IMG/VR virus record: IMGVR_UViG_3300045283_000159
Location: 1-57,683 of that record
Direction: 5' to 3' (one strand)
From: a virus
DNA: 57,683 nt
Both the position numbers and the translations under genes were made by a program. Shown piece after piece: positions 5,683 through 53,009 of this stretch; position 1 is the first letter of the stretch, and each line of letters starts with the position of its first letter. The notes below the pieces were generated by a model, which worked only from the letters and a program-made list of their open reading frames with translations, was not told the DNA's origin and did no database searches.

Positions 5683-7725
5683 ATGACCGAGCATGAGATC
5701 CCCGAGTCGCGGGCGCAGGTCGTCCAGCTCCGCGCGGTGGACGCGCAGACCGAGGTAGCGCTGGACGAGGGCAGGCCGCCCGGCCCCGCCTACGTCGACC
5801 TGACCGGCGCCGAGGCGAAGCGCCGCGCGATCATCCCCGAGCACTGGCGCACCCGGGAGAACGCGAAACGCCATGTCGCCCTCGCCGCCGCCCGGCACGG
5901 CCACCGCGCCGCCTACCACGGCGTCCGCTCGCCCGGCTACCTGGTCAAGGCCGCCGGCTACGCGGTCCGCGGCGTGTTCGTCACCGCCGGGCACCTGATC
6001 TCCTGGTGGCACATCCCGGGGACGTCCAGCCTGGAACATCAGGCCGCGGCGGACGGGCTGCTGAACGACCACCTGCGGCTGCACAAGGCCGCGAAGGAGA
6101 CCCGCAAGGCCCGCGGCACGATCCTCGCCGCCGCCGCCGTGGCGGCGTTCATCGCGGCTGACGCCATGGTCCTGCTCGCGCCGTGGTGGGGATGGGCCCT
6201 GCTCGCCGTCGTCCTGTTCACCGCCGCGGCGCTGGCGGGCCGGCCGCAGGGCAAGACCATCACGACGAAGGCGGAGCTGCCCGCGCAGGTGCAGCCGCCG
6301 ACCCAGGACGTCATCACCCGGGCGCTCGGGTCGATCGGCATCCCCGGCATCAGCCAGGCCATCCGCAACGGCGAGCCGCTCAGCTTCCCGTCCCCCGTGC
6401 GGGAGGACGGCCCCGGCTGGCGGTTCGACTGCGACCTGCCCTACGGCGTCACCGCCACGCAGGTCATCGAGCGGCGCGAGCAGTTCGCGTCCGGGCTGCG
6501 GCGCCCGCTCGGCGCGGTGTGGCCGGAGGTGGCCGCGCACGAGCACGCCGGCCGCCTCGAATGCTGGGTCGGCAAGACGGACATCTCCAAGGCGAAGCCG
6601 GCGCCGTGGCCGTGGCTGCGGACGGGCGGCGGGGACGTGTTCGGGCCGCTGCCGTTCGGCACCGACCCGCGCGGACGCCGGGTCGACGGGCACGTGATCG
6701 AGCACAACTGGCTGCTGGGTTCCATGCCCGGCCAGGGCAAGACGTCGGCCCTGCGGGTGCTGGCCGGCGCCGCCGCGCTCGACCCGACGTGCGAGCTGTG
6801 GATCTGCGAACTGAAGGGCACCGGGGACCTCGACCCGTTCGAGCGGGTCTGTCACCGGTTCGTCTCCGGCATCGACGACGACTCCATCGCGTACGCGGCG
6901 GAGTCGCTGAAGAAGCTCCGCGCCGAGGTGACGGCCCGCGCCGACCGGCTCAAGAAGCTGCCCCGCGAGCTGTGCCCGGACAGGAAGATCACCCGGCAGA
7001 TCGCGAACCGCCGCGGCCTGAAGCTGCATCCGCTGGGGTGCTTCATCGACGAGTGCCAGAACCTGTTCGCCCACCCGAAGTTCGGCAAGCAGGCCGCCGA
7101 GGACGCCATCTTCATCATCAAGATCGGCCGGGCGCTGGGCGTGTTCCTGATCCTGGCCACCCAGCGCCCGGACAGGGACTCGCTGCCGACCGGGGTGTCC
7201 GGGAACGTGTCGACGCGGTTCTGCCTGAAGGTCGCCGGCCAGGTCGAGAACGACATGATCCTGGGCACCAGCGCGTACAAGAACGGGGCCCGCGCTACGA
7301 CGTTCCGGCCGAAGATCGACGCGGGCCTGGGCTACCTGAAGGGCGAGGAGGACGTGCCCCGGGTGGTGCGGACGTACTACCTGAACGGCCACGACGCCGA
7401 GCGGGTCGCCCGGCGGGCGCGGGCGCTGCGCGAGGCGGCCGGGACGCTGACCGGCGTCGCCGCCGGCGAGGACGACGAGGCGGAGCGCCGCGACGTGCTG
7501 GCCGACGTGCTGGACGTGTTCGCGGGCGACGCAGGGCTGCAGTGGCAGGTGCTGGCCGCCCGGCTCGCCATGCGGTTCCCCGAGCGGTGGGATGACGCGT
7601 CGGCCGACGCGGTGTCCGCCGAGCTGCGGGCCCGCGGCGTGCCGAGCGTGAACGTGAAGGCGGACGGGCAGGTGGCCCGCGGCTGCCGCCTGGCCGCCGT
7701 CGAGGCCGCGGCGGAGCCGGCGTGA
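5683..7725 (+). CDS. traB: FtsK/SpoIIIE-type DNA translocase, TraB-like
   Basis: 680 residues from ATG 5683 (GTG 5680 also possible). Two adjacent membrane segments lie at about residues 146-187. The cytoplasmic motor has Walker A GSMPGQGKT at 346-354 and Walker B GCFIDE at 452-457, then a RecA-like core with 'ILATQRPDRDSLPTGVSGN'. The last about 75 residues (LQWQVLAARLAMRFP...VNVKADGQVARGCR) match the winged-helix end of actinomycete conjugative TraB proteins, which reads 8-bp repeats in clt and moves double-stranded DNA between hyphae. The C-terminus is followed at once by an octamer cluster (7736-7843). Membrane-anchored hexameric pump is the expected form. A chromosomal FtsK is unlikely because the long N-terminal membrane region and linker are absent. 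The gene symbol is by similarity of architecture. Confidence 0.85.
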   Translation: MTEHEIPESRAQVVQLRAVDAQTEVALDEGRPPGPAYVDLTGAEAKRRAIIPEHWRTRENAKRHVALAAARHGHRAAYHGVRSPGYLVKAAGYAVRGVFVTAGHLISWWHIPGTSSLEHQAAADGLLNDHLRLHKAAKETRKARGTILAAAAVAAFIAADAMVLLAPWWGWALLAVVLFTAAALAGRPQGKTITTKAELPAQVQPPTQDVITRALGSIGIPGISQAIRNGEPLSFPSPVREDGPGWRFDCDLPYGVTATQVIERREQFASGLRRPLGAVWPEVAAHEHAGRLECWVGKTDISKAKPAPWPWLRTGGGDVFGPLPFGTDPRGRRVDGHVIEHNWLLGSMPGQGKTSALRVLAGAAALDPTCELWICELKGTGDLDPFERVCHRFVSGIDDDSIAYAAESLKKLRAEVTARADRLKKLPRELCPDRKITRQIANRRGLKLHPLGCFIDECQNLFAHPKFGKQAAEDAIFIIKIGRALGVFLILATQRPDRDSLPTGVSGNVSTRFCLKVAGQVENDMILGTSAYKNGARATTFRPKIDAGLGYLKGEEDVPRVVRTYYLNGHDAERVARRARALREAAGTLTGVAAGEDDEAERRDVLADVLDVFAGDAGLQWQVLAARLAMRFPERWDDASADAVSAELRARGVPSVNVKADGQVARGCRLAAVEAAAEPA

Positions 7726-7735
7726 CCCCCCGCGA

Positions 7736-7843
7736 GGGTAGCGCCGCCGCTACCGCCCCTGACCTGCGCGGACGAGGGCTGCCCGCTACCGCCGCTACCG
7801 GGCCGCCCGCCGTGACCTGCGCGGTAGCGGGTAGCGCCGCCGC
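7736..7843. other. Octamer cluster, candidate clt locus for the TraB-like translocase
   Basis: Six copies of (C/G)GGTAGCG lie in 101 bp: forward at 7736-7743, 7822-7829 and 7829-7836; reverse (CGCTACCG) at 7748-7755, 7784-7791 and 7793-7800. The first two form a perfect inverted repeat with a 4-bp gap. A 15-bp direct repeat (gggtagcgccgccgc at 7736 and 7829) and a 12-bp one (tgacctgcgcgg at 7760 and 7813) overlay this. The stretch is non-coding, begins 10 bp after the translocase stop, and resembles the TraB recognition sequences of Streptomyces plasmids in size and position, though with a different octamer. Confidence 0.7.
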
Positions 7844-7870
7844 ACGTCAGATGACGGAGGAAACGGCCCC

Positions 7871-8071
7871 ATGGCCCTGCTGCCGGGCGCGCGGGATGAG
7901 CACCGCTACCAGCTCTGCCAGGACGAGTTCTGCGACCGGTTCCCCTGCCGCCTGTACAAGGAAGGCCGGGGCGACGGCGAGCAGTACGGCTATCAGCGCG
8001 GCCACGCCGAGGGGTACGCGGAGGGGTTCGGCGACGGCCTGGAGTCGTGTCCGGGCCCGCATGGCGGGTGA
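7871..8071 (+). CDS. Hypothetical small protein of the transfer operon
   Basis: 66 residues, ATG 7871 with a strong ACGGAGGAAAC ribosome site. It has CQDEFCDRFPC near residues 17-27 and a Gly/Tyr/Glu repeat (YGYQRGHAEGYAEGFGDG). First gene after the octamer cluster. Family not recognised, though small proteins of this type occur beside AICE translocases. Confidence 0.65.
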   Translation: MALLPGARDEHRYQLCQDEFCDRFPCRLYKEGRGDGEQYGYQRGHAEGYAEGFGDGLESCPGPHGG

Positions 8072-8077
8072 TGCGTG

Positions 8078-8365
8078 ATGGCCGCCCTGCTCATCATCCT
8101 GATCCTGCTCGCGGCCTGGGCCGGGTCGCTGTACCTGTGGCCGTTCCGTCCGTGCCTGCGGTGCGGCGGCACCGGCCGGAACAAGGGCAGCACCGGGAAG
8201 CGGTTCGGCTTGTGCAAGGCGTGCGGCGGATCCGGGCGCAGGCAGCGTTTCGGGTCCAGGACACTGCACCGCTGGGCGAGGTCGGCCCGGACGGAGATCG
8301 CCCGGGGGCGGGAGAAGCGGCGTATCGAGCGCGTGAAGCGCAGGACGGAGAACCCCAGGCCATGA
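8078..8365 (+). CDS. Membrane-anchored DnaJ-type zinc-finger protein
   Basis: 95 residues. One N-terminal membrane segment (about residues 2-22) is followed by CLRCGGTGRN and CKACGGSGRR, two CxxCGGxG knuckles as in DnaJ zinc centres, then a very basic tail (RGREKRRIERVKRRTE). Similar small membrane zinc proteins sit in AICE transfer operons. ATG 8078 is preferred over GTG 8075, which reads VM. The basic tail suggests nucleic-acid or membrane-face contact near the translocase; this is inference. Confidence 0.7.
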   Translation: MAALLIILILLAAWAGSLYLWPFRPCLRCGGTGRNKGSTGKRFGLCKACGGSGRRQRFGSRTLHRWARSARTEIARGREKRRIERVKRRTENPRP

Positions 8366-8541
8366 GCACCGAAGAAAACGAGCTGGACCTAGCGAAACTG
8401 CTGGGCAACGGGCTCAACCTGGCGGTAGTGCACGCATTCGACGCAGCGGACGAGGGCCAGGTCACGTGGATCACCGAGGGTGGCGTGCGGATCGCGGCAA
8501 TTGCCCCAGTGGAACGCATCACACAGGAGGACGGGCGATGA
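8362..8541 (+). CDS. Hypothetical small acidic protein
   Basis: 59 residues, ATGA overlap with the zinc-finger gene and again with the next gene. Sequence reads as a small alpha/beta fold (ENELDLAKLLGNGLNLAVVH...VTWITEGGVRIAAIAPVE). No family recognised. Confidence 0.7.
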   Translation: MSTEENELDLAKLLGNGLNLAVVHAFDAADEGQVTWITEGGVRIAAIAPVERITQEDGR

Positions 8542-8759
8542 AGGACACGGAGATGACAGCCGGAGACGAGCGCATAGACCGCGTGACGAGGCTTGCCGCG
8601 GTCATCCTGGCGGTCTTCGTTCTCGTGTTGTTCCTGGTGGCATCGGTCATGCTGCTGGCCGGGTGCTCTGACCCGTGCGCGGGTCATGGCGGGATCAGGT
8701 CCCAGGGGGGCGGCTGGACGTATTGCAATGACGGCACGCAGATTGCGGGCTACGGATGA
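8538..8759 (+). CDS. Small membrane protein, possible lipoprotein
   Basis: 73 residues. A charged 20-residue N-terminus is followed by a single hydrophobic helix (AAVILAVFVLVLFLVASVML) ending in LLAGCSDPC, a possible lipobox with Cys at about 44. The N-terminus is long for a lipoprotein signal, so a plain bitopic membrane protein is equally possible. Coupled on both sides by ATGA overlaps in the transfer operon. Confidence 0.65.
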   Translation: MKDTEMTAGDERIDRVTRLAAVILAVFVLVLFLVASVMLLAGCSDPCAGHGGIRSQGGGWTYCNDGTQIAGYG

Positions 8760-9208
8760 GACGGCCGGAGAGCACGCAGAACCGGGGCCTGCTGGCGGGG
8801 TTCAGCCCGCTGGCGGGTGTCTCGGCGGGCACTGCGCTGGTGCTGTTCGCGTTCGGGGTGCTGTGCCTGGCCTGGCATCAGGTGTCGGGGCACGTGTCGC
8901 TGGCCATCACCATGCTGGCCTACGCGGTGATCGCCGCCCTGGCCGTGGTCACCGGCGCCGGAACGTGGCTGGTCGTGCTATGGGTCGCGCACCGTCACCG
9001 TAACCCGGAGCTGCTGGTGCGGCAGGTGGTCCGGGCCGAGGTCGTCGACCCGGCCGCGCCGCCGGCCATCGCCGCTGCGCAGCCTGCCGCGATCGAGCCG
9101 CCCCGCGTCTACCTGAACGTCACACCGGACCAGCTCGCAACTCTTGTGCGGCAGCAGGTTACAGACACGCAACTACCCCGCGACAACCATGACCAGGGGA
9201 CAGCATGA
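8756..9208 (+). CDS. Two-helix membrane protein, Spd-like candidate
   Basis: 150 residues. Two membrane segments (about 21-39 and 47-72) are followed by a soluble C-terminal domain of about 75 residues ending in a helical region (NVTPDQLATLVRQQV). Position between the TraB-like gene and the DUF2637 gene, with ATGA overlaps at both ends, fits the spread (Spd) genes of actinomycete conjugative elements. The family assignment rests on context and topology only. Confidence 0.6.
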   Translation: MRRPESTQNRGLLAGFSPLAGVSAGTALVLFAFGVLCLAWHQVSGHVSLAITMLAYAVIAALAVVTGAGTWLVVLWVAHRHRNPELLVRQVVRAEVVDPAAPPAIAAAQPAAIEPPRVYLNVTPDQLATLVRQQVTDTQLPRDNHDQGTA

Positions 9209-9897
9209 CAACCATGAAACTCCCAGCCTGGACCCGCCGCATCCGTGACCGGCTGCGCCCGTCCGCGCCCGCGCCCGCGCCCGTCCGCGGTGACAAGGCG
9301 TTCGCTTTCGTCACCCTGGCCGTGGTCGCGGCGGTGGCCGTCATCGCGTTCTCCGCGTCGTACCAGCACCAGTACGAGCTGTCCATCTACTACCGGCAGA
9401 CTCACTGGGTGGCGGGCATGATGCCGTTCTCTGTTGACCTGCTCATCGTGGCGGCGGGCCTGGTGATCTGGTATGCGGCCCGGCACGGCTATCCGCGTCC
9501 CCTGCGGGCGTATGCGGCGCTGTCGGCCGGGGTGGCTGCGACGGTGATCGCGAACCTCGCCGCGGATCATCATTACGCCTGGCCGTGGCTCGGCCCGGGG
9601 ATCAGCGTGTGGCCCGCGATCGCTTTCGTCGGCGCGTACGAGATGGCGGTGTGGCTGGTCCGCAAGCGGCAGGAGACGGCAGCCGGGGCGGAGGGCGGCG
9701 GCACGGTTCCGTCGCCCGGTTTCAGCGACGCCGAAACCGCGGCGCTGGCGTCTTTGAGGGCGACACTGGCGGCGGGGAACCCGTGGTCGCAGAATCAGCT
9801 TCAGGACCGGTTCGGCCTGTCCCGTGCGGAGGCGGCGAAAGTGCGTAAGCGGGTGCTGGCCGGATCCAACGGGCACGACGCAGGGAGCCAGCCGTGA
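9205..9897 (+). CDS. DUF2637 membrane protein with C-terminal HTH
   Basis: 230 residues. About residues 30-160 have four hydrophobic segments in the DUF2637 pattern (FSASYQHQYELSIYYRQTHW, SVDLLIVAAGLVIW, then AFVGAYEMAVWLV). Residues about 175-220 form a helix-turn-helix-like C-terminus (NQLQDRFGLSRAEAAKVRKR). DUF2637 proteins are frequent in actinomycete conjugative elements and are thought to act with transfer or spread genes. ATGA overlap with the previous membrane gene and GTGA with the next place it inside the transfer operon. Confidence 0.8.
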   Translation: MTTMKLPAWTRRIRDRLRPSAPAPAPVRGDKAFAFVTLAVVAAVAVIAFSASYQHQYELSIYYRQTHWVAGMMPFSVDLLIVAAGLVIWYAARHGYPRPLRAYAALSAGVAATVIANLAADHHYAWPWLGPGISVWPAIAFVGAYEMAVWLVRKRQETAAGAEGGGTVPSPGFSDAETAALASLRATLAAGNPWSQNQLQDRFGLSRAEAAKVRKRVLAGSNGHDAGSQP

Positions 9898-16117: not shown

Positions 16118-16405
16118 ATGTCGTCACTGAGGGTAGTGAAGGACAGCCCGACCCCCCGCCGGCGCAAACCGGCGACGGTGCGGTCCGCGGCGGAGAGCGG
16201 CAGCCGCCGCGCGCTGCTGACCGCCTTGCGGGCCCGGATCGCGACGGGCATAGACAACCCGGATACGCCCGCGCGGGATCTGGCGGCCCTGTCGCTGCGG
16301 CTGCTGGACATCGCCCGGGAGCTGGAGCTGCTGGACGCGGCGGAGAAGGCGGACGGCATTGGCGAGGCGGCAGCAACCCCGGACCAGCGCTGGACTGCTC
16401 CCTGA
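16118..16405 (+). CDS. Terminase small subunit
   Basis: 95 residues from ATG 16118. A basic N-terminus is followed by LLTALRARIATGIDNPDTPARDL and LSLRLLDIARELELLDAAEK, the short helical pattern of actinophage small terminases. Position directly before the large subunit and after a repeat-rich gap supports DNA recognition at the packaging site. Overlaps the large-subunit start by 47 bp. Confidence 0.7.
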   Translation: MSSLRVVKDSPTPRRRKPATVRSAAESGSRRALLTALRARIATGIDNPDTPARDLAALSLRLLDIARELELLDAAEKADGIGEAAATPDQRWTAP

Positions 16406-17291
16406 GGCTGCGCATCTCGTCCTGCCCAGGGGCATAGCCAGTGACGGCTTCCCGAGCACGCGGCGAGTGTGCGAGCGGATCGGGATCGTCTTCGACCCGT
16501 GGCAGCGTGACCTGAACCGGTGCCTGCTGTCGAAATCGCGCGATGGCCTGTACGCGGCGGACACGGCGCTGCTGTCGATCCCGCGGCAGGTGGGCAAGAC
16601 GTTCGACGTCGGCGGCGTGGTGTTCGCCGACTCGATCATCAACCCGGGCACGGTGACGGTGTGGACGGCGCACCGGTTCAAGGTGGCCCGGGAGTCGTTC
16701 AATGAGATGCGGGCGTGGGCGAAGTCGCCGCTGTTGGTCCCGCATATCGACTACGCCGACATCACCACGGGCGCGGGCAATGAGTGCATCCCGTTCCGGA
16801 ACGGCTCGCGGATCGTGTTCGCGGCCCGGGAGCGGGGCTCGGTCCGCGGGTTCACGAAGGTGCGGCGGCTGGTGCTCGACGAGGGCCAGATCCTGACGGA
16901 GATAGCGCTGTCGGACCTGGTTCCGACGATGAACCAGGCGGTTAACCCGCAGATCATCTTGATGTGCACGCCGCCGAAGCCGTCGGACCCGTCCGAGGTG
17001 GTGACCCGGCTGCGGGCTGACGCGCTGGACGGCGAGAGCACCGGCGTCCTGTACGTGGAGCTGTCGGCGCCGGCGGGCTGCAAGCCGGATGACCGGGCGG
17101 CGTGGCGGAAGGCGAACCCGTCCTATCCCCGCCGGACCCCGGCGAAGGCGATCCTGCGGATGCGCAAGCTGCTGAGCCCGGAGGATTTCATGCGCGAGGC
17201 GCTGGGCGTGTGGGATGACCCGGACGGCGCGTGGGAGGTCATCGCCGAGGATACGTGGGGTGCGGCGGCCGTGCGGCAGGGGGCGCTGTGA
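16359..17291 (+). CDS. Terminase large subunit, ATPase part
   Basis: 310 residues from TTG 16359 (AGGCGG upstream). Walker A is PRQVGKT at residues 75-81 after LLSI; Walker B is LVLDEG with D174-E175; a coupling stretch MCTPPKPSDPSE follows. The protein stops right where the nuclease domain would begin. The rest of the enzyme is in the -1 frame from 17288. One extra G in the GGGGG run at 17279-17283 would fuse the two frames. So this is a frameshift (real or sequencing), a recoding site, or a truly split terminase coupled by GTGA. Confidence 0.85.
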   Translation: MARRQQPRTSAGLLPEAAHLVLPRGIASDGFPSTRRVCERIGIVFDPWQRDLNRCLLSKSRDGLYAADTALLSIPRQVGKTFDVGGVVFADSIINPGTVTVWTAHRFKVARESFNEMRAWAKSPLLVPHIDYADITTGAGNECIPFRNGSRIVFAARERGSVRGFTKVRRLVLDEGQILTEIALSDLVPTMNQAVNPQIILMCTPPKPSDPSEVVTRLRADALDGESTGVLYVELSAPAGCKPDDRAAWRKANPSYPRRTPAKAILRMRKLLSPEDFMREALGVWDDPDGAWEVIAEDTWGAAAVRQGAL

Positions 17292-17815
17292 TCGGCGCGG
17301 TCGCGTTCGGGTGTGCGATCAGCGACAGCTGCACCTGCCACGGGAAGGCCCGCCAGCACGGCTCGATCGTGGCGGCCGGCCGGTCCGGGCCGGGGAAGAT
17401 CCTGGTGGATCTGGCGCCGTTCTACGGTTCTCCCGGGCTGCTGGTGGCGCGGATGGCCGTCCTGTACGCCAAGCATGACCCGGTCGCGGTGGTGGTGAAC
17501 CCGAAGTCGCATTCGGGGACGCTGGTCAAGCCGCTGGGTGAGGCGGGGATCCTGGTCCGCGAGGTTACGGCGCAGGACGTGGCGGTGGCCCACGGGGAGT
17601 TCCTCGACTTGGTTGACGACGGCGGCCTCGAGCACCTCGACCAGCCGCCGTTGACCTCTGCCGTGCGGGCGGCGCAGCAGCGGCCGCTGGCGGGTGCGCA
17701 GGCGTGGGATCCGAAGGTGGCGACCGACCAGAGCCCGCTCGTGGCCGCCACGCTCGCCTGCTGGGCGTTCCGCCGGTGGGAGGAACTCGCGCAACCGTCC
17801 GTGTGGGCGATCTGA
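17288..17815 (+). CDS. Terminase large subunit, nuclease part
   Basis: 175 residues from GTG 17288, overlapping the ATPase stop as GTGA. It carries the C-terminal elements of actinophage TerL: AVAFGCAISD (first acidic residue), ILVDLAPFYG, AVVVNPKSHSGTL, HGEFLDLVDDGGLEHLD, and the closing DQSPLVAATLACWAF with a catalytic Asp. RNase H-fold nuclease that cuts the concatemer at packaging. The two parts together (about 485 residues) match a normal large terminase, so no domain is missing. Confidence 0.8.
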   Translation: MIGAVAFGCAISDSCTCHGKARQHGSIVAAGRSGPGKILVDLAPFYGSPGLLVARMAVLYAKHDPVAVVVNPKSHSGTLVKPLGEAGILVREVTAQDVAVAHGEFLDLVDDGGLEHLDQPPLTSAVRAAQQRPLAGAQAWDPKVATDQSPLVAATLACWAFRRWEELAQPSVWAI

Positions 17816-17817
17816 GC

Positions 17818-17971
17818 GGCCGGAGGAGTAGGCGCGTAGCGGTGCCTCGTTCTTAAGCCGCAGTCACGCTCAAGCCCTCCGGACCGTGCCCGGCTACCCG
17901 TCGGGACTGGCTTGACTTCGCCCGCGCATTTAGGGACCTGCCCTGGTACCTGGCTGCGGCCTCCTCCGGCC
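17818..17971. repeat. Long-range inverted repeat bounding a non-coding gap
   Basis: GGCCGGAGGAG (17818-17828) and its exact complement CTCCTCCGGCC (17961-17971) enclose most of the 181-bp gap between terminase and the next gene. No convincing gene lies inside. The left arm overlaps a ribosome-site-like GGAGGAG. Confidence 0.4.
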
Positions 17972-17996
17972 ACCCATCCGAACTTAGGAGGCGATC

Positions 17997-18218
17997 ATGC
18001 GGTTGTCTATTGCTTTGCTGCTCGTCTCCCTGCTCGGCGTCCTGGCCGGCGGGTGGCTGACGGGCCGTCTCGGGTTCGGCCTGTGCGTGATCGCCGACAG
18101 CGTGGCGGTGGGTTTCCTGGCGCTGCGCCTCGACGACGGGACGGGCGATCAGCAGCCGCAGGTGCACGGCGTGCCGACGCTGCAGGACGTGCTCGAGCGT
18201 GCGAGGCGGGCCGGGTGA
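17997..18218 (+). CDS. Small two-helix membrane protein
   Basis: 73 residues, strong TTAGGAGGCG ribosome site. Two hydrophobic helices (about 2-20 and 26-44) and a soluble acidic tail (VHGVPTLQDVLERARRAG). Overlaps the portal start as GTGA. Small membrane proteins between terminase and portal are seen in some actinophages; role unknown. Confidence 0.6.
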   Translation: MRLSIALLLVSLLGVLAGGWLTGRLGFGLCVIADSVAVGFLALRLDDGTGDQQPQVHGVPTLQDVLERARRAG

Positions 18219-19636
18219 CGCGGCTGTGGGACCGCCTCATCAAGCGGGACGGCTACTGGGAAGGCATGGCCAGCGGCGCGTCGGTCCTGACGACCTCCTA
18301 CGCGTCGCCTGACCGGGAGCCGGTCCTGCCGCAGCTCGCCGCGTACGCGCAGCAGGCCAACTCGTCCAACGCGATCATCTTCGCCGCGATCCTCGTGAGG
18401 ATGAGCCTGTTCTCGGAGGCGCGGTTCGCGTTCCAGGCGAAGGACGACCGGCACCTGTTCGGCACCACGGCCCTGGCCAAGCTGGAGGAGCCGTTCGGGC
18501 CGGAGAGCACGACGGGGCACCTGCTGGCCCGGATGGAGCAGGACGCGTTCCTCGCCGGGAACGCCTACATCTGGGATCCGCCGGGCGAGGACCGGCTGGT
18601 GCGGCTGCGGCCCGACTGGGTGACCATCGTGTCCGAGCGGGTGCGCGTGGCGGACAGCGGCTGGTACCGCCGCCCGGTGGCCTACTGGTTCGAGCCGCCC
18701 AGGTCCCTGATGTCCAGGGATGAGGGGTTCCTCGTCCCGGCGGCCGAGTGCGTCCACTGGGCGCCCATCCCCGACCCGCAGGCCGACTTCCGGGGCATGA
18801 GCCCGCTGACCCCGATCGCCCGGGATCTCGCCGGTGACGACGGGATGACCCGGTACAAGCTGCGCTACCTGCAAAATGACGCCAGCCCGAACGTGATCAT
18901 CAAGTACGCGCAGAAGCTGCAGGAATCGACGATCGACAAGATCCGGGAGCGGACGGCCGCCCGGTACGCCGGCCCCGACAATGCGGGCAAGACGCTGGTC
19001 CTGGATCAGGGCGCGGACCTGACGCTGGTGGGCAACAGCCTGAGCCAGATGGATTTCTCCGGGGTGTCGTCGGTCGGGGTGGAGCGGATCCTGGCGGCGT
19101 GCGCGGTGCCGGGCGTCCTGGTGGGCCTGGAGCCGCTGCGGGGCGCGGGCCGGGGCTTTGGCGAGAGCATGACGAAGTTCGCGAACTTGTGGGCGCGGCC
19201 GGAGTGGCGGTCAGCGTGCGGGGCGCTGGAGAAGATCACGGACGTCCCCGCAGGCAACAGATTGTGGTTCGACGTCGCTGATATCCAGGCGCTGCAGGAG
19301 GGCGAGACGGCCCGGGCGCAGGCCGCTTTGGTGCGGGCTCAGGCGCTGCTGGCGCACCACCAGGCGGGTTATGACCTGATGTCCGCGGTCGCGGCGGTGG
19401 AGAGCGGGGACCTGACGCAGCTGAAGGCCGCGCCGGTCCCGCCGCCGCCGCCGAACCTGCCGGTGCAGCACCTGCTGCCGCAGCAGTCGCCGGGCGCGGC
19501 GGCTGAGCCGCTGCCGGCGGGGGCGATGCCCCGCCTGCCGGTCGGGTCCACGTCGCCGGGGGACGGCGGGAACAACACCAGGCCGACACCGCGGCCGTCC
19601 AGCGCGCGGCGGGTACTGAACGGAGCGCCCGGCTAG
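18215..19636 (+). CDS. Portal protein, HK97-like
   Basis: 473 residues from GTG 18215. The core matches the siphoviral portal family: SSNAIIFAAILVRMSLFSEA, HLLARMEQDAFLAGNAYIW, GMSPLTPIARDLAGDDGMTR, NDASPNVIIKY, GVERILAACAVPGVLVGLEP. The C-terminal 80 residues are Pro-rich and disordered. It would form the dodecameric DNA gate at the capsid vertex. Overlaps the preceding small membrane protein by GTGA; a terminator-like hairpin follows. Confidence 0.9.
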   Translation: MTRLWDRLIKRDGYWEGMASGASVLTTSYASPDREPVLPQLAAYAQQANSSNAIIFAAILVRMSLFSEARFAFQAKDDRHLFGTTALAKLEEPFGPESTTGHLLARMEQDAFLAGNAYIWDPPGEDRLVRLRPDWVTIVSERVRVADSGWYRRPVAYWFEPPRSLMSRDEGFLVPAAECVHWAPIPDPQADFRGMSPLTPIARDLAGDDGMTRYKLRYLQNDASPNVIIKYAQKLQESTIDKIRERTAARYAGPDNAGKTLVLDQGADLTLVGNSLSQMDFSGVSSVGVERILAACAVPGVLVGLEPLRGAGRGFGESMTKFANLWARPEWRSACGALEKITDVPAGNRLWFDVADIQALQEGETARAQAALVRAQALLAHHQAGYDLMSAVAAVESGDLTQLKAAPVPPPPPNLPVQHLLPQQSPGAAAEPLPAGAMPRLPVGSTSPGDGGNNTRPTPRPSSARRVLNGAPG

Positions 19637-39671: not shown

Positions 39672-42600
39672 GTGGCCACCCAGTCGATCACCTATGAGTT
39701 TCTGAGCCGGGGCGCTGCGTCACTAGCTCGTGACTTCAGGTCAACGGGCGACAGTGCTTCGGCCGCGGCGCGGGGCGCGGCGGTCCTCCAGAAAGTCATC
39801 GCCGACCTGGGGCAGAAGGAGAACCGCACCGCGGCGGAGTCGGTGGCCCTAGCGAAGGCGCTGCGGCTGACCGGCGACGCGGAGGACCGGGCCGCCGCGA
39901 AGGCCCTGGCGGCTGACATCGCGATCCGCCGCCTCGACGACGCGCTGAAGGACTCGTCCAAGAGCACGGGCGGCGCCAGGGCGGGGTTCGCGAGCCTGGC
40001 CGGGGAGGTCACCGGGTTCGGCGCCGCCTCCGACGCGGCGACCAGCGGGGGAAACAAGTTCAAGCTGGCCCTGGCCGGGCTGAACCTCGCCTCCGGGGTC
40101 CTCGAGCCCGCGCTGGCCGGGGTCGTGGTCGCCGCAGGCGGCCTCGCGGCGGCGTTCTCTGCCGCCGGGGCCGGGGTCATCGCCTACCAGGTCGCGCTGA
40201 AGCCGCTGCTGTCCCAGACCACCGACGTGATGAAGGCCCAGGCGGCGCTGGACAAGGCGCAGGCCACGGCGCAGGCGAATTACGCGGCGGCCATCAAGTC
40301 CGGGGTGAGCGCCAAGACCGCGGACGCGGCGCGGACCAAGGCGATGACCGCGGCGCAGCAGCAGTACAACCTGGCCGTCGCGGCCGCCCCCGCGCCGGTC
40401 CGCGAATTCGCCAGGGCGGTGGAAGACACCAAGTCCGGCTACACCGCGTGGGCCGATTCCCTCGCCCGGCCCGTGCTGAGCCCCCTGTCGACGGCGCTGA
40501 AAATAGTCGAGCCCGCGCTGAAGGCGATCACGCCGCTGGTGCGGGTCACGGCCGGCGCGTTCGGGATGCTGGTCACCGAGATATCCAGGAAGGTCGACGC
40601 GGGCGGCCTGACGTCCGTCGTGACCACGGTGCTGCCGCACGTGCGGGACACGATCCTCGACCTCGGGCACGCGGCGGGGAACGTGGCCGCCGGGATCTGG
40701 GGCATCCTCAAGGCGTTCATGCCGGTGTCCGGGCAGATCACCGCCGGGGTCGTCAAGCTGACCGCCAAGTTCAAGGAGTGGGGCCAGTCCCTGTCCGGCG
40801 GCACCGGGTTCCAGTCGCTGATGACCACGTTCCGCACCGAGACGCCGCAGGCCATGGCGATCCTGACGAACCTCGGCACGGTGATCACCAACGTCGGCAA
40901 GGCGATGTTCGGCCTCTCCTCGTTCAGCAATTCCCGGCTGCTGCTGTCCGCGCTGCTGCCCCTGTCCGGGGTGATGGCCAGCCTGAGCAAGAACACGGAC
41001 CTCGTGCGGATAGCGATGTACGCGCTGCTCGCGGTGAAGATCGGGCAGCAGTTCTCCTGGGTCACCGACGCGTGGAAGGGGATCGTCAAGTTCGCCGCCG
41101 CCGCAGAGGGCGCGACGGTCGCGGAGACCATCGCCGCCGCCGCGACGAGGGCGTGGGGGCTGGCGATGACCGCGCTGCCGTGGGTCGCGCTCGCCACCGC
41201 CGTCGTCGCCGTCGCGCTGCTGATCATCAAGTACCACCAGCAGATCTGGACGTTCATCCAGAAGGTGTGGCACGACATCCTCGCCGTGATCATGGGCGTG
41301 TGGAACTGGGTCAGGACGAACTGGCCGCTGCTGCTCGGCATCATCACCGGGCCGATCGGCCTGGCGATCTTGTGGGTCGTCCAGCACTTCGGCGAGATCA
41401 CCACTGCGGTCAAGGCGGTGCTGAACGCCGTGCAGACCGCGTGGAACGCCGTGTGGGGCGCGATCAGGGCCGCGTTCGCCGTGTTCATCTCCGCCGGGAT
41501 CATCGCCCCGTTCAATACGATCACCGGCGCCATCAGGACGGTCCTGTCCGCCGTGTCGTCGGCGTGGAATAACACGTGGAACACGCTGAAAGCCGCGTTC
41601 CGGATCTTCGTCGTCGACGGGGTGCTGGGCCCGCTCGGCCTGATCATCAACGGGGCGGCGAAGGCGTTCAGCTGGGTTCCCCTCGTCGGCGACAAGCTGA
41701 AGGGCGCGGCGGCGGCGTTCAACACGTTCCGGGCTAACGTCAACTCGTCGCTCGGCGGGATCAACGGCCGGACCGTCAACGTCTCCGTCGCCATGACGTC
41801 CGCGACCAACCCGTACGGCGGGATCACCCCGAAAACAGCCCGCGGCTGGCTGGTATCCGGCGGGACGCCCGGCAGGGACAGCGTGCCGATCCTGGCCATG
41901 CCGGGCGAGCTGGTGGTACCCACGCACATCGTCCGGGCCGGGGCGGTCGACCACCTGCGCGGCCGGATCCCCGGGTTCGCGGCGGGCGGCGTGGTCGGCG
42001 CTCCCGGCACGGGCGTGGTCGTCGCCCCGCACACCCCGACCGTCGCGCAGGTCCAGTCGACGCTGATGGCCAGCGTCATGAAACTCGCCGTGGTGTTCGC
42101 GAAAGCCGCGCAGGCCGCCGCGAAGGCGGCCGCGGGAGGGGCCGGGACGCCAGGTCCGGGCGGCGGCGCCCCCGGCGCGAACGCCGCGCTGGCCCGCCGG
42201 CTGATGCCCTCCTGGGGCAGCGGCGCCGAATGGAACGCGTGGAACTACCTGGAAATGCGGGAGGCGGGCTGGAACCAGTTCGCCCGCAACCCGTCATCGG
42301 GCGCGTACGGCATCCCGCAGGCGCTACCACCCGGGAAGATGGGTGCTGCGGCGAACCCGCCGCAGTCCAACCCCACCGCGCAGATCCGCTGGATGATCGG
42401 CTACATCCAGAGCCGGTACGGCGATCCGATCGCGGCGGCCGCCCATGAGCGGGCGTTCAACTGGTACGGCGGCGGCCTGGATGCCATGTTCACCCGGCCG
42501 ACACTAATCGGCGTCGGCGAGCGCGGCCCCGAGCACGTCCAGGTCACACCCGGCGGCGGCGGGGGCGGGGACCTCGGCGCCAAGCTGGACCGGCTCATCG

Positions 42601-42731
42601 CGGAAGTCCGGCAGCTCACCGGCGTCGCCGCGGGCATCCCCGCCGCGACCGGCCGCCACGTCGGCGGGGCCATCAACAGCTCCGCCGGAGCGGCCAGCTT
42701 CCGGAACCGCTACCCGCAGGGCGGTGCGTAA
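39672..42731 (+). CDS. Tape measure protein with C-terminal lytic transglycosylase-like domain
   Basis: 1019 residues from GTG 39672, ribosome site AGGGGAG. Long Ala-rich helices, hydrophobic stretches (ALEPALAGVVVAAGGLAAAF near 140-160 and WVALATAVVAVALLIIKYHQ near 505-525) and repeated Trp-containing helices near 530-680 are typical tape measure features. Residues about 836-940 (WNYLEMREAGWNQFARNPSS, GAYGIPQALPPGKMG, IRWMIGYIQSRYGDP, FNWYGGG) form an SLT-like muramidase domain seen in Streptomyces phage tape measures. Catalytic Glu is probably in YLEMREAGW. It sets tail length and helps DNA cross the cell wall. Confidence 0.9.
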   Translation: MATQSITYEFLSRGAASLARDFRSTGDSASAAARGAAVLQKVIADLGQKENRTAAESVALAKALRLTGDAEDRAAAKALAADIAIRRLDDALKDSSKSTGGARAGFASLAGEVTGFGAASDAATSGGNKFKLALAGLNLASGVLEPALAGVVVAAGGLAAAFSAAGAGVIAYQVALKPLLSQTTDVMKAQAALDKAQATAQANYAAAIKSGVSAKTADAARTKAMTAAQQQYNLAVAAAPAPVREFARAVEDTKSGYTAWADSLARPVLSPLSTALKIVEPALKAITPLVRVTAGAFGMLVTEISRKVDAGGLTSVVTTVLPHVRDTILDLGHAAGNVAAGIWGILKAFMPVSGQITAGVVKLTAKFKEWGQSLSGGTGFQSLMTTFRTETPQAMAILTNLGTVITNVGKAMFGLSSFSNSRLLLSALLPLSGVMASLSKNTDLVRIAMYALLAVKIGQQFSWVTDAWKGIVKFAAAAEGATVAETIAAAATRAWGLAMTALPWVALATAVVAVALLIIKYHQQIWTFIQKVWHDILAVIMGVWNWVRTNWPLLLGIITGPIGLAILWVVQHFGEITTAVKAVLNAVQTAWNAVWGAIRAAFAVFISAGIIAPFNTITGAIRTVLSAVSSAWNNTWNTLKAAFRIFVVDGVLGPLGLIINGAAKAFSWVPLVGDKLKGAAAAFNTFRANVNSSLGGINGRTVNVSVAMTSATNPYGGITPKTARGWLVSGGTPGRDSVPILAMPGELVVPTHIVRAGAVDHLRGRIPGFAAGGVVGAPGTGVVVAPHTPTVAQVQSTLMASVMKLAVVFAKAAQAAAKAAAGGAGTPGPGGGAPGANAALARRLMPSWGSGAEWNAWNYLEMREAGWNQFARNPSSGAYGIPQALPPGKMGAAANPPQSNPTAQIRWMIGYIQSRYGDPIAAAAHERAFNWYGGGLDAMFTRPTLIGVGERGPEHVQVTPGGGGGGDLGAKLDRLIAEVRQLTGVAAGIPAATGRHVGGAINSSAGAASFRNRYPQGGA

Positions 42732-43139: not shown

Positions 43140-43181
43140 TCCCCGGAGGAGCCAGTGACAGCTGACCCGCACGGGGGCCGG
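43140..43181 (+). repeat. 42-bp imperfect gene-start repeat, copy 2, with nine-codon leader
   Basis: Second copy of 42946-42987. Here GTG 43155 opens a nine-codon frame (VTADPHGGR) whose TGA overlaps the ATG of the distal tail gene (TGATG at 43182). So the copied ribosome site may drive that large gene by coupling. Confidence 0.7.
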
Positions 43182-43183
43182 TG

Positions 43184-46100
43184 ATGACGTCCAGCCTCAT
43201 CCTGGGCAACGCGATCGAATTGCTGGGTGCTGAGGGGGGCGTCCCGTCGGTCAACCCCGCGTGCCCGGGGGCGATCTTCCTCCTCGCCGACGACGGCTCC
43301 TATGACCTGGGTGCCCCGGCGCCCACCTCGAGTTACGTGGCCAGCCTGATCCTCGACGGGGAACGGCCGTTCGGCCGCAGGGCCAGCAACCGGACCATCA
43401 CGCTGCCCATAAAGATCGTCGCGCCGAACGGCAGCCTGCAGCTCCTGGCCGCCGCCCGGGAATTTTTGCAGCAGACCGTCGACCAGGACGTGTGGACGAT
43501 CACGTGGGTACGCGACCCCGGTCCCGGCGGCACGCCGGTGCCGCTGATCATCGACTGCTTCCGCGCCCAGCCGTCCAGGCCGTCGTACGCGCCGCTGGCT
43601 GAGGCGCAGGGTGTCATGCGGGTCAACCTGACGATCCCCGCCCTGCCGTACGGCCGGTCCGACGTGCAGTCGCAGATCGCGTTCGCGGCGCCGATCCCGC
43701 AGACACCCCCGCCGCCCCCGGCACCGGTGGTCATCGACACGTTCAGCAGCATCAGCAGCACGCAGCATTTCCAGTCGGACCGGTGCATCGTCGGCCCCCG
43801 CTCCTGCGGGTGGGACCCGGACGACGCGCGGGTGGGTGACCCGGGCGGGCAGGCTAACCGGTTCCTCTACACGAACGCGTCGCTGGCCACCACGCTGAAC
43901 CTGACCGGCATGACCAGCCTCGCGATGTGGCTCGGGTTCGGGTCCCGCTACTACACGTACCTGGAGTATCACGGGAAGATCCACGGGGTCTCCCTCTACA
44001 TCACGCTGACGGACACGTCGGGGAACACGCTCGGGATGAGCCGCACCGGGCTGCGGCTGCCGGTGTCCCCGGACGCGCAGCAGCCCGTGTTCAGCCGCGT
44101 GTCGATGCCCATCCCGGCCAGCACCACGTTCAACTACGCGTCCGTCGGCGGGTACACGATCGAGATCCTCAACCGCCACGACCGGATCCGGCGGCTGTCC
44201 TGGGTGACCGCCTTCGTCGACGCGCTCACCGCCTACCCGCCGTCGCAGACCGCGAACCCGGTGACCCGCGGCGCCCTCTACACCCTGTACGGGCTGCAGG
44301 GGACGGCCAGGTCGGCGATGACGCTGGCGTTCCAGCAGCCCCCCACCGCAGGCACCCCCACGACGATCACCGCGACGGGGGCCGGCAACTACACCGTCCC
44401 CGCGCTGGCCGCGTGGCTGAAGGTGGAGGCGGTCGGCGGGGGCGGCGCGGGAGCGTCGCTGACCGCGACGGGCAACGGCGGAGGCGGAGGCGGAGGCGGC
44501 TACTCAGCCGAGTACGTGTTCCCAGCGACGCCAGCCCAGGTCATCCCGTATTACGTGGGCCTCGGCGGCACGGCCGGGGCCAGCCCGGTCGACGGGCAGC
44601 CGACCGTGTTCGGCCCCGGCCCGTCCGGGCCGATGGCGGTCACCGCGAACGGCGGGAAGTCCGCCCTGCAGAACTCCTCCGCCGGGGCGCTCGGCGGCCT
44701 GGCGTCCGGGAACGCGGTCACCTTCCCCGGCGGCACCGGCCGGACCGCCACCGGGTCGGTAGGCGGCGGCGGTGGCAGTTCCGGCGGGAACGCGTCGGCG
44801 GGCCTGTCCCCGACCGGCACGGCGGCCACCGTGTTCACCTCGCCCGGCACCGCGAACTGGACCTGCCCGCCCGGCGTGACCCAGGTCTACGCGGAATGCT
44901 GGGGGTCCGGCGGGTCCGGGGCCCTGGGAGCGTCCGGCGGCGGCAACGGCGGAGGCGGAGGGGCCGCCGAATATGCGGCGCAGTTCGTCAACGTGACGCC
45001 GGGCAACAGCTACAGCTACACGGTGGCGGCGGGTGGCGCTGCCGTGTCCACCTCCGCCACGAACGGTAATAACGGGGCCAGCTCGACGTTCACCGGGGAC
45101 GCCGCCGTCACGGTCACCGCGCACGGTGGTGGCGCCGGCCTGTACCGGACCAGCAGCGGCGGCCAGGGCCCGGCAGGTACCGGGTCATCGAACGCGGTGC
45201 ATTTCAACGGCGGCCAGGGCGGTCCGGCGTTTCCCTATTCCGGGTCGGGTGGAAGCTCAGCCGGGCAGGCGGCGGCCGGCAACAACGGCAACGGCTATGG
45301 CAGCGCGACCCCCGCGCCGACCGGTGGTGGTGCCGGGGGCGCCGGGACCGGGGCAACCACCGGAAACGGAACCGCCGGAACAGCTCCCGGTGGTGGCGGC
45401 GGTGGTACCTACACCAGCCCGGGAACCTCTGGGGCGGGCGCGGCCGGCCAGGTGCGGCTTACCTTCCCGGGCGGCCTGGGAGCCCCGACGAACAACGGCG
45501 CCGCAGCCGTGTCCGGCGGCGGTGCGGGCGGGGCGGGCGGCCCGTCCGCCAACACCGTGGGCAGTGCGGGATCCCAGCCGGGCGGAGCGGGCGGCGGGGC
45601 GTGCTCCACCGGGACCGCCGAGGCCGGCGGCGCGGGGGGCGCGGGCAAGCTCATCATCACCCCGTACTCGTCCGCGCCGTTCAAGAGCTTGATCGTGCAC
45701 CGGCCGCCGCTCGGCGCCTTGAAAACTTTCGTGCCGCTCGTCCCCGTCGGTGCCGGGGTCGACGCGCCGGACGGAACCCACGCGTACACGGTCCCGCAGC
45801 CCGTCACCGGGGTGAACGCGGACTTCGGCGGGACGTACACCCTGTACCTGATCGCCTCGTCGCTGAACGGCAGCTCGGCCAGGACGATCACGGTGACCGT
45901 GACGCAGTACGAGTTCGCGGGCGGCCCGTCCTACTCCGTGTCGACCCTGCCGGTCACGGTCACCCCGGCGCAGGTGACCAACGGCATCCTGACGGCGGGC
46001 GTCCTCACCCTGCCGGTCAAGGCCGTCGCTGCGGACAACTCGGGCGGCTACTACTCCGTCAGCGTGACCGACACGAACAACGCGGACCGCTGGCTGGACT

Positions 46101-46396
46101 GCATCTTCCTGGACTGTCAGGGAAGCACCGTGACTATCAATGGCACCGGCAGTTACATCAACTACTACCTGGATGCGCCGGAGCCGAACCTGGACCTGGG
46201 CCTGATCATGGGGTCCTCCCAGGGGCGGCCGTCCGCGGTGTCCGTGTTCGACGCCTGCCAGGCGATCAGCGGCGGGGCCATGGCCATCGAACCCGCCGAC
46301 GGGGAGAACGCGCTTTTTGCATATTCCGCTGACGCGTCGGCCCCGAACATCTCCGTCAGCTACTACCCGAATTGGTTCTTCGACCGGACACAGTGA
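43184..46396 (+). CDS. Distal tail protein with two glycine-rich domains
   Basis: 1070 residues from ATG 43184. Residues 1-180 resemble siphoviral distal tail proteins (LILDGERPFGRRASNRTITL, LAAAREFLQQTVDQDVWTI). A beta-sandwich at about 185-370 follows. Two Gly-rich domains lie at about 385-540 and 548-830 (VPALAAWLKVEAVGGGGAGA; CPPGVTQVYAECWGSGGSGA), each an N-terminal strand then G-rich helical bundle as in phage 'glycine-rich domain' adhesins. A C-terminal beta part ends near 1070. Adhesion to the host surface is likely. Confidence 0.75.
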   Translation: MTSSLILGNAIELLGAEGGVPSVNPACPGAIFLLADDGSYDLGAPAPTSSYVASLILDGERPFGRRASNRTITLPIKIVAPNGSLQLLAAAREFLQQTVDQDVWTITWVRDPGPGGTPVPLIIDCFRAQPSRPSYAPLAEAQGVMRVNLTIPALPYGRSDVQSQIAFAAPIPQTPPPPPAPVVIDTFSSISSTQHFQSDRCIVGPRSCGWDPDDARVGDPGGQANRFLYTNASLATTLNLTGMTSLAMWLGFGSRYYTYLEYHGKIHGVSLYITLTDTSGNTLGMSRTGLRLPVSPDAQQPVFSRVSMPIPASTTFNYASVGGYTIEILNRHDRIRRLSWVTAFVDALTAYPPSQTANPVTRGALYTLYGLQGTARSAMTLAFQQPPTAGTPTTITATGAGNYTVPALAAWLKVEAVGGGGAGASLTATGNGGGGGGGGYSAEYVFPATPAQVIPYYVGLGGTAGASPVDGQPTVFGPGPSGPMAVTANGGKSALQNSSAGALGGLASGNAVTFPGGTGRTATGSVGGGGGSSGGNASAGLSPTGTAATVFTSPGTANWTCPPGVTQVYAECWGSGGSGALGASGGGNGGGGGAAEYAAQFVNVTPGNSYSYTVAAGGAAVSTSATNGNNGASSTFTGDAAVTVTAHGGGAGLYRTSSGGQGPAGTGSSNAVHFNGGQGGPAFPYSGSGGSSAGQAAAGNNGNGYGSATPAPTGGGAGGAGTGATTGNGTAGTAPGGGGGGTYTSPGTSGAGAAGQVRLTFPGGLGAPTNNGAAAVSGGGAGGAGGPSANTVGSAGSQPGGAGGGACSTGTAEAGGAGGAGKLIITPYSSAPFKSLIVHRPPLGALKTFVPLVPVGAGVDAPDGTHAYTVPQPVTGVNADFGGTYTLYLIASSLNGSSARTITVTVTQYEFAGGPSYSVSTLPVTVTPAQVTNGILTAGVLTLPVKAVAADNSGGYYSVSVTDTNNADRWLDCIFLDCQGSTVTINGTGSYINYYLDAPEPNLDLGLIMGSSQGRPSAVSVFDACQAISGGAMAIEPADGENALFAYSADASAPNISVSYYPNWFFDRTQ

Positions 46397-48892: not shown

Positions 48893-48910
48893 GCAGAACG
48901 GAGTATCACC

Positions 48911-50342: not shown

Positions 50343-50352
50343 GGAGGCCACG

Positions 50353-50994: not shown

Positions 50995-51018
50995 CCCTGT
51001 AACAGCCGGGGGGCGAGC

Positions 51019-51792: not shown

Positions 51793-51798
51793 GGGGCC

Positions 51799-52032
51799 GT
51801 GGCCGCCAGGGTCAGGGCGTGGATCGCCGCGCATCGGAAGGTAATCGTCGCCGTGACCGGCGCCGCCCTCACCCTGGCCATCCAGGTGTGGGGCACCGGC
51901 AACCCGTGGGTCTCGTTCGCGATCCTGGCCGCGACCAGCCTCGGCGTGTACGGAGCCCCCAACCAGGCCCCGCCCGCCGCGCCGTCCCGGGCCGAGAAGA
52001 CCCTGATCCAGCCTCCCGCCGCCCCGGAGTGA
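51799..52032 (+). CDS. Holin-like protein
   Basis: 77 residues from GTG 51799. Two membrane helices (VIVAVTGAALTLAIQVWG at about 15-32; WVSFAILAATSLGVYG at about 37-52), a basic N-terminus and a Pro/Ala tail. It resembles the holins that precede endolysins in Streptomyces phages. It would permeabilise the membrane and time lysis. Confidence 0.7.
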   Translation: MAARVRAWIAAHRKVIVAVTGAALTLAIQVWGTGNPWVSFAILAATSLGVYGAPNQAPPAAPSRAEKTLIQPPAAPE

Positions 52033-52113
52033 CCCGCTGCGGCGGGAGCCAGGCGCGGACACCAACCCCGCTGCCCCGGACCCCGGCAGCCCTGGCCGTC
52101 TGAGGAGACCGCC

Positions 52114-52248
52114 ATGGCCTACTGCCGCTGCTGCGGCGTCTTCGCCGACCTCGACGCCGCCAAGATGTGCGACACCTGCCGCGCCAATTGGCAGCCAACC
52201 GGCAGCAAGCCCGACGACCTCGGAACCCGCCACCCAGGAGCCCCATGA
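52114..52248 (+). CDS. Small Cys-rich zinc protein
   Basis: 44 residues, TGAGGAG ribosome site. CRCCGVFADLDAAKMCDTCR forms a compact zinc ribbon. Overlaps the endolysin start as ATGA. Function unknown. Confidence 0.6.
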   Translation: MAYCRCCGVFADLDAAKMCDTCRANWQPTGSKPDDLGTRHPGAP

Positions 52249-53009
52249 CGATCGCCACGGTCACCGTCTGTGATGCTATTCGCGCCAACATCAGCCACCT
52301 CCCCAAAGGACCCGCCGCCGGGTACACGACCGGCCACGGCATCGTCCCGTGGGGCGCGGCGGAGTGGAAGGCGCACCCTGGTGCGGTGAGGATCTGCCAG
52401 GACCCCGGCGCCACCGACACCACCGCCGACGTCCTCGACGTCGAGGCCGGCGCGGCCACCATCGCCCGGTGCGCCCCGTGGGCCGAAGCCGCCGCCGCGA
52501 ACTTCGCCCAGGGGAAACGCGCCGGGCAGCGGAGCCCCGCCGTCTACATGAGCCTCAGCGCCGTCACGCCCGTCGTCAACGCCCTCGTCCACGGCGGCAT
52601 CAGCGAAGGCGTCGGCCTGTGGGTCGCGAACTGGAACCTCACCGTCGCCGAGGCCACCGCCCTCGTCGCCCACGCGGGCGGGCCGTTCCCCATCGTCGGC
52701 GTGCAGTACCGCAACGCCGGGACCTACGACGTGTCCGTGTTCAGCAAGCCGTGGCTCGGCGCGGTGTCCGGGGACCCGGTGACGCACCCGCCGAAGGGGT
52801 TCCACGGCGAATGGGTCACCAAAGGGCAGCTGTCCCTCGCGCAGCTCGCCGCCACGTTCGGCCTGAAACCCTCCACGCTGCTCCGCATGACCGCCGTGCA
52901 CTTCGGCCAGTTCGGGCCCGAGCTCGCCTCATACGTCAACGCGGTCCACAACGGGACGCTGCGCCCCAACTCGCCGCTCCCCGCGGCCAGCGTCCTGTGG
53001 GTCGACTGA
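52245..53009 (+). CDS. Putative endolysin, GH25-like with LysM-like C-terminus
   Basis: 254 residues, no signal peptide. The N-terminal about 175 residues have a TIM-barrel-like GH25/DUF1906-type pattern: VRICQDPGATDTTADVLDVE (Asp-Glu pair near 65-67), SPAVYMSLSAVTPVV, VGLWVANWNLTVAEATALV, IVGVQYRNAGTYDVSVF. The last about 60 residues (LSLAQLAATFGLKPSTLLRM) look like a LysM-type wall-binding motif. Last gene of the structural and lysis operon, just after the holin-like gene and before a strong terminator. Catalytic type is inferred. Confidence 0.7.
   Translation: MTIATVTVCDAIRANISHLPKGPAAGYTTGHGIVPWGAAEWKAHPGAVRICQDPGATDTTADVLDVEAGAATIARCAPWAEAAAANFAQGKRAGQRSPAVYMSLSAVTPVVNALVHGGISEGVGLWVANWNLTVAEATALVAHAGGPFPIVGVQYRNAGTYDVSVFSKPWLGAVSGDPVTHPPKGFHGEWVTKGQLSLAQLAATFGLKPSTLLRMTAVHFGQFGPELASYVNAVHNGTLRPNSPLPAASVLWVD

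Follow-up and report, generated by a model that had tools for sequence, protein, structure and literature searches.

A candidate TraB/clt-type transfer module in a putative temperate siphovirus of actinomycetes and its recurrence among phage-like elements

The IMG/VR virus record IMGVR_UViG_3300045283_000159, analysed here over its whole length of 57,683 bases (hereafter, the window), has a GC content of 66 to 75% across 2-kb windows and carries on a single contig a gene for a TraB/FtsK-like DNA translocase (Tra), a group of small membrane-protein genes, a cluster of siphovirus packaging, head and tail genes, and a tyrosine integrase gene close to a putative phage attachment site (attP) (Table 1). 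An earlier inspection of the sequence by itself (the original prediction) had described these genes as a transfer module typical of actinomycete integrative and conjugative elements (AICEs) joined to a complete siphovirus programme, and had proposed a temperate phage that may also spread between hyphae as double-stranded DNA. The translocase, DUF2637 and small membrane-protein genes that it placed at 5683-9897 were confirmed by open reading frame (ORF), profile and transmembrane (TM) predictions. Among the genes characteristic of siphoviruses, the window has a terminase, portal, protease, major capsid protein, tape measure protein and integrase; among those characteristic of AICEs, it has an integrase and Tra, whereas a replication initiator (Rep) was not found.

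Table 1. Predicted features of the window
Feature	Position	Strand	Evidence and remarks
Cro/CI-type helix-turn-helix (HTH) regulator	2025..2504	-	PF13443 at 1.3e-4
NUDIX protein with HTH, divergent from tra	4570..5292	-	Weak candidate for Pif-like transfer immunity
TraB/FtsK-like DNA translocase (Tra)	5683..7725	+	Two N-terminal TM segments, FtsK motor, C-terminal winged-helix-like region
clt-like array	7726..7910	+	Sequence evidence only
Small tra-module protein	7871..8071	+	Homologues beside other phage-set Tra genes; 10/114 loci, window included
One-TM CxxCxGxG protein	8075..8365	+	Also directly after tra in AICE-like loci; 72/114 loci, window included
Small single-TM protein	8538..8759	+	TM prediction; no homologue in other loci of the 114-locus set
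Two-TM protein, spread-protein candidate	8756..9208	+	TM prediction; no homologue in other loci of the 114-locus set
DUF2637 membrane protein	9205..9897	+	PF10935 at 3e-12; frequent tra neighbour in AICE-like loci; 56/114 loci, window included
Terminase large subunit (TerL), ATPase part	16359..17291	+	Profile match
TerL, nuclease part, separate ORF	17288..17815	+	GTGA overlap; no Pfam match
Portal protein	17912..19636	+	Profile
Prohead protease	21425..22786	+	Profile
Major capsid protein	22811..24301	+	Profile
Head-tail adaptor	34457..35479	+	Profile
Major tail protein	37399..37878	+	Profile
Tape measure protein with transglycosylase region	39672..42731	+	Profile
Tail protein	43181..46396	+	Profile
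Small membrane protein, holin candidate	51799..52032	+	Weak; phrog_17495 at 7e-4
Tyrosine integrase	53449..54897	+	Sole phrog_1 match in window
Putative attP core, 45 bp, 3' half of tRNA-Arg(ACG)	55455..55499	-	Match to actinobacterial sites

The tra ORF opens at 5680, starts with ATG at 5683 and runs uninterrupted to 7725, encoding 681 amino acids with a GC content at third codon positions (GC3) of 0.98. The product matches the FtsK/SpoIIIE family phrog_1358 at 2.7e-25, and no Pfam model, FtsK_SpoIIIE included, matched it at 0.01. Its FtsK/SpoIIIE motor has Walker A (GSMPGQGKT) and Walker B motifs, and the Walker A pattern is present in 113 of 117 rows of the Tra alignment, three of the four misses being fragments. 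Hydropathy places TM segments at residues 148-166 and 169-187, and two N-terminal membrane segments are likewise reported for TraA of the Streptomyces plasmid pWTY27 (PMC3583192). An AlphaFold model based on 30 sequences from the window and its loci reached a mean predicted local distance difference test score of 86.6, and the modelled order of helices and strands in the last 70 residues fits a winged helix. Foldseek searches with the model returned FtsK motor domains first, with 6t8b as the best match in the PDB, followed by the conjugation protein TcpA from rank 14. The DUF2637 protein at 9205-9897 also matches phrog_733, a family labelled 'excisionase' in PHROGs, which is a doubtful label for a membrane protein.

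Repeats directly after the tra stop bear out the candidate clt locus proposed earlier. The 8-bp repeat CCGCTACC is found at 7747, 7783, 7792 and 7903, and a further copy near 7823 is inverted; GGGTAGCG occurs at 7736 and 7829 inside the array, and a TGACCTGCG box lies 34 nt downstream of the stop. This array occupies the same position as the clt of pWTY27, which was mapped by deletion and footprinting to a segment comprising the final 16 bp of traA and the 159 bp that follow it (PMC3583192). Clusters of exact 8-mers (p <= 0.01) were searched for in a 230-base region around the Tra stop, and significant arrays were identified in 13 of the 35 loci of the phage set (which, for the array, NUDIX and box counts, takes in the five viral records lacking both terminase and capsid) and in 44 of 78 other loci. 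The corresponding controls gave 1/31 and 3/81 upstream of Tra, and 18/502 and 39/1196 in random regions. Several AICE-like loci have an inverted first copy near +10 and further copies near +20, +42 and +54, a layout that resembles that of the window. Within 300 nt of the stop, the TGACCTGCG box is on the Tra strand in 12 of 35 phage-set loci and on the opposite strand in six, versus 8/78 and 1/78 of the other loci, respectively; its frequency elsewhere is about 0.01 per 300 nt. The CTGACCTGCG box was first spotted by eye in the window and in loci L009, L027, L032 and L163, and the counts include those five. In many phage-set and some AICE-like loci, this box lies amid lineage-specific 8-bp repeats in the first 300 nt past the Tra stop. 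Judged from sequence, the post-tra array is a candidate clt; since, according to one paper, no clt motif had been described for the AICE pSAM2 (PMC9513070), the array may help there too.

The structural part of the original prediction held for packaging, capsid and tail genes, all recovered by profile, whereas the lysis gene that it placed at 52167-53009 has no family match; the siphovirus gene set is likely complete. The large terminase subunit is encoded in two ORFs, and phrog_9 also matches in two pieces in four other records (G006, G019, G026 and G029), so that a split terminase may be natural in some. A 54-base repeat array at 33217-34280, between the capsid and adaptor genes, perhaps encodes a repetitive structural protein. 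Two endonuclease VII-like genes (PF02945) are located at 3892-4563 (minus strand) and 38996-39664 (plus strand). Within the tape measure gene, ARAGORN called a tRNA-Arg(ccg) (39993-40077); it has no Rfam match and is probably false.

The integrase at the end of the element, which was expected to be shared by both modules, is indeed single. Across 30 records, the window included, at least one phrog_1 match was found in 19, of which 17 have exactly one. The 45-bp putative attP core shares as much as 98% identity with actinobacterial genomic sites, and an 81-base query was matched in 134 of 198 sampled genomes. At six of these loci examined with ARAGORN, a tRNA-Arg(ACG) was found at the match in four and none in the other two. 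The same program called no such tRNA in the window, where the 5' half was not found, and therefore only the 3' half is present. Because this half is flanked by the integrase on one side and by a DNA methylase with a phage-family match (phrog_67) on the other, we read 55455-55499 as the probable attP of a non-integrated genome, and this form suggests that the contig itself is not integrated. At the contig ends there is neither an end repeat nor a coding-like ORF spanning the joined ends, so a circular form has no support here. An att site between the translocase and structural blocks, named in the original prediction as a sign of two separate elements, is not what was found, as attP lies outside both. 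Flanking attP on its two sides, a Mom-family protein gene (PF25680; 54894-55358) and the DNA methylase gene (PF01555; 55612-57216), both on the minus strand, make up a DNA-modification cassette.

The same gene order was observed in two Streptomyces prophages. In S. ossamyceticus NRRL B-3822 (G044) and S. himalayensis PSKA28 (G074), Tra, TerL, portal, protease, major capsid protein and adaptor genes are colinear with those of the window. Their respective products are 32 and 29% identical to those of the window for Tra, 31 and 30% for TerL, 34 and 40% for its nuclease part, 40 and 38% for the portal, 58 and 30% for the protease, 45 and 36% for the capsid, and 38 and 30% for the adaptor, and the tape measure match is short (59 and 71 residues). 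On the far side of Tra, a serine integrase gene and one resembling a DNA polymerase/primase are present in the S. ossamyceticus prophage, and genes for a replication initiator, an exonuclease, a polymerase exonuclease subunit and a tyrosine integrase in the S. himalayensis prophage. With integrase and replication genes on one side and TerL on the other, Tra therefore lies inside these prophages. The capsid of the S. ossamyceticus prophage, searched for in 246 Streptomyces genomes, was found in four, G044 included, and Tra adjoins TerL in two of them (G044 and G332) but was not found in the regions read around the copies in the other two (G377 and G402). Tra is therefore an accessory gene at a fixed place. 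The prophage structural block is duplicated in one of the four genomes (G402, contig C1, 8778711-8825049), its two copies lying about 41 kb apart.

Tra and terminase together on one contig, the combination that the original prediction suggested searching for, were found on viral contigs, on two closed circles and in Streptomyces prophages. A tblastn search of 72,556 plasmid records with Tra matched 69, including Pseudonocardia alni pPaSha2 (CP052773), whose Tra is 49% identical over 68% of the query. Like this record, P. broussonetiae NZ_CP053567 is a closed circle, and both encode Tra, DUF2637, terminase, portal (identified by profile in NZ_CP053567), protease and capsid. In the viral records, a scan with the single Tra sequence returned nothing, and an alignment of five Tra sequences then found 29 viral loci. 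Among these 29 records, 19 have a phrog_9 terminase, 15 a phrog_10 capsid and 24 either of the two; those with neither (G001, G005, G010, G011 and G016) are 5.8 to 44.6 kb in length. Genomic contigs yielded 439 Tra relatives, of which the best 80 were kept and 79 examined, in 74 distinct genomes; in many of these closest loci, Tra is preceded by DUF2637 and followed by the CxxC protein, as is the case in AICEs. A terminase was found in 27 of the 74 genomes, and a Tra-type gene within approximately 8 kb of it in three (G037, G044 and G074), the Tra proteins of which are more distant family members. In a phage collection of 50,697 records, tblastn with the window's Tra matched only Gilgamesh (two records, 24% identity) and one faecal phage, and the S. 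ossamyceticus Tra gave no match among phage records. The closest relatives of Tra found belong to phage-like contigs, actinomycete plasmids and AICE-like loci, and not to division loci, to which they would have been confined had the second refuting condition of the original prediction applied. The architecture combining Tra with phage genes is real and recurrent, and since it is spread over divergent lineages, it is suggested to be old.

In the Tra tree of 117 rows, the window falls in a clade of ten rows, composed of itself and nine viral contigs, with a support of 100 and a stem of 0.73. The phage label (30 rows versus 81) requires six changes, five of them forced by starred branches, where shuffled labels need 27 on average; since the tree was quickly built and its branches are long, the exact number is soft. 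The label 'no phage' denotes only that no phrog_9 terminase was seen close by on the same contig, which cannot be judged for loci at contig ends; L003 and L005 received it from empty profiles, and no label was given to L094 or to the five viral rows that lack both terminase and capsid. Phage-borne Tra proteins thus appear to form several clades among the AICE Tra proteins. Tra and TerL identities show no correlation (Spearman 0.04) in a comparison of 15 records, made up of the window, two plasmids and 12 viral records whose terminase matches in one piece; L029 was left out for its Tra fragment, and four of the 14 window TerL alignments are shorter than 70 residues. The nearest TerL among plasmid records, at 49% identity, belongs to a Propionimicrobium circle in which the Tra profile finds nothing. 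As judged from these comparisons, structural and transfer cassettes are exchanged and their combination persists.

Several known systems share part of this architecture. AICEs of the pSAM2 type (Ghinet 2011; PMC3218068) resemble the window in having a tyrosine integrase at a tRNA 3' end, a TraB-type Tra, DUF2637 and CxxC neighbours and a clt-like array, whereas the window differs from them by its phage head and tail genes and the lack of a recognised Rep. The plasmid-phage pZL12/PhiZL12 (GQ919031) is likewise an actinomycete phage genome with a transfer locus, an integrase and structural genes (PMC3583192, PMC5431353), but it is 90 kb long and has ParAB. No match to plasmid Rep or Par was found among the ORFs scanned in the window. 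The window's Tra had no tblastn match in pZL12, a Tra profile scan of pZL12 bases 1-50000 was empty, and the three ORFs that surround the Tra3-like gene of pZL12 gave no FtsK domain with Pfam. PhiNon1 of Nonomuraea gerenzanensis is a plasmid-phage of about 59 kb and 70% GC that has been found in circular form and also inserted at the 3' end of a tRNA, but this tRNA is tRNA-Val, and TraB is not mentioned in the text consulted (PMC5431353). A Nonomuraea Tra match was considered as PhiNon1 and rejected, the locus being chromosomal and AICE-like, with DUF2637 and an integrase and no TerL or capsid profile match in 42 kb. Its neighbours are presumably gyrA and gyrB. pPaSha2 and NZ_CP053567 differ from the window in being deposited as plasmids, with TerL about 30% identical and, in NZ_CP053567, a primase/polymerase gene. 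The prophage Phi1207.3 of Streptococcus pyogenes is reported to be capable of conjugal transfer, although its host belongs to another phylum and the abstract names no TraB system (PMC4260502). Among the papers listed in a search of open-licence literature, which does not amount to proof, no title or abstract describes a temperate phage with a TraB/clt module. The plasmid-phages pZL12 and PhiNon1 (PMC5431353) and the conjugative prophage Phi1207.3 (PMC4260502) are known precedents.

The DUF2637/CxxC module, the array, the colinear prophages and the recurrence in viral contigs argue for a maintained transfer module, transfer itself being a prediction. We consider it probable, with a good deal of reserve, that the contig is a temperate siphovirus of a soil actinomycete which integrates at tRNA-Arg(ACG) and has acquired an AICE-type transfer module that its kin have kept. 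With similarly guarded confidence, a dual-route lifestyle appears to be the most likely reason why this architecture is kept. By analogy with known TraB systems, the phage DNA would be present as a circle after excision or after infection, and Tra hexamers would bind the array through their C-terminal winged helix and drive double-stranded phage DNA into the neighbouring compartment through a hyphal contact or cross-wall. The membrane proteins would assist spread, and the incoming circle would recombine at attB to give a new lysogen without lysis. Particles would thereby serve long-distance transfer, and Tra the spread inside and between mycelia. The wider proposal, for which we see the chances as evenly balanced, is that several temperate actinophage lineages are dual-route elements that disperse as virions and, by means of a TraB/clt pump for double-stranded DNA, spread their prophage without lysis through and between mycelia, the clt consisting of lineage-specific 8-bp repeats that in many loci surround a CTGACCTGCG box common to some AICEs.

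The single element, its AICE-type transfer module and its temperate siphovirus genes hold as originally proposed; DNA movement between mycelia and particle formation are predictions. Several observations weigh against the interpretation given above. No significant array was detected by the exact 8-mer test in 22 of the 35 phage-set loci, pPaSha2 included. PF09250 is absent from the window, and a scan of the main ORFs from 9.9 to 15.7 kb gave no Pfam Rep, the RepSA and RepAM models not having been run by name. Tra was not found in 46 kb around the capsid-lineage copy in G377 or in the 99 kb holding the two tandem copies in G402, and none of the 79 closest genomic Tra loci (among the best 80 of 439) has a terminase within approximately 8 kb. 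In favour of the interpretation, all 21 pairs among seven Tra genes have a ratio of nonsynonymous to synonymous substitutions (NG86) below 1, but its range of 0.32 to 0.75 is only moderately low and is biased by the extreme GC3, which makes it weak evidence. pSAM2 owes its conjugal immunity to Pif, a NUDIX protein (PMC3218068), and a homologue of the window's NUDIX protein is also divergent to Tra in the colinear S. himalayensis prophage. As a general companion of phage Tra, however, a Pif-like NUDIX was rejected, since a strict NUDIX box lies near Tra in 1/35 phage-set versus 18/82 other loci, and the window's own protein does not fit that box; a Pif-like role remains a weak lead in two cases, the window and the S. 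himalayensis prophage.

Tra might instead move or segregate phage DNA across septa or into the spores of its own host while the latter grows or sporulates, the array being a loading site and no transfer between individuals taking place. The FtsK motor fold of the model and the lack of an AICE Rep in the window are in line with this, as are the FtsK-like stretches that the P. broussonetiae Tra matched at low identity in 144 phage records, most of them from phages of Bacillus and Mycobacterium, a result that also counts against a transfer role. We consider segregation unlikely, though worth keeping in view, because the nearest Tra kin are AICE-like and plasmid Tra proteins, and transfer is the better fit for DUF2637, the CxxC protein and an array sited where clt lies in a plasmid; intramycelial spread and segregation nevertheless overlap. 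It is less probable again that the tra module is a neutral or decaying passenger from recombination with an AICE: its accessory nature, the uncoupled Tra and TerL identities and the missing Rep would agree with such an origin, but the intact frame with its high GC3, the near-universal Walker A motif, the phage-only clade with a long stem, the fixed place upstream of TerL in distant prophages and the cis array do not suggest decay. Two adjoining elements or an assembly chimera, for which the lack of end repeats on a virus contig might speak, seem very improbable given a single phrog_1 integrase, an attP outside both blocks, and closed circles and colinear prophages that hold both modules.

The usual classification assigns phages and conjugative elements to a single route of transmission each. 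If the dual-route interpretation is true, a recurrent group of phages would combine both, with receptor-free passage of phage DNA through multicellular hyphae, each phage carrying its own pump and its own 8-bp motif, and the line between AICEs and prophages would be blurred. Since the window has no recognised Rep, AICE surveys that demand Int, Tra and Rep (PMC3218068) would overlook elements of this kind.

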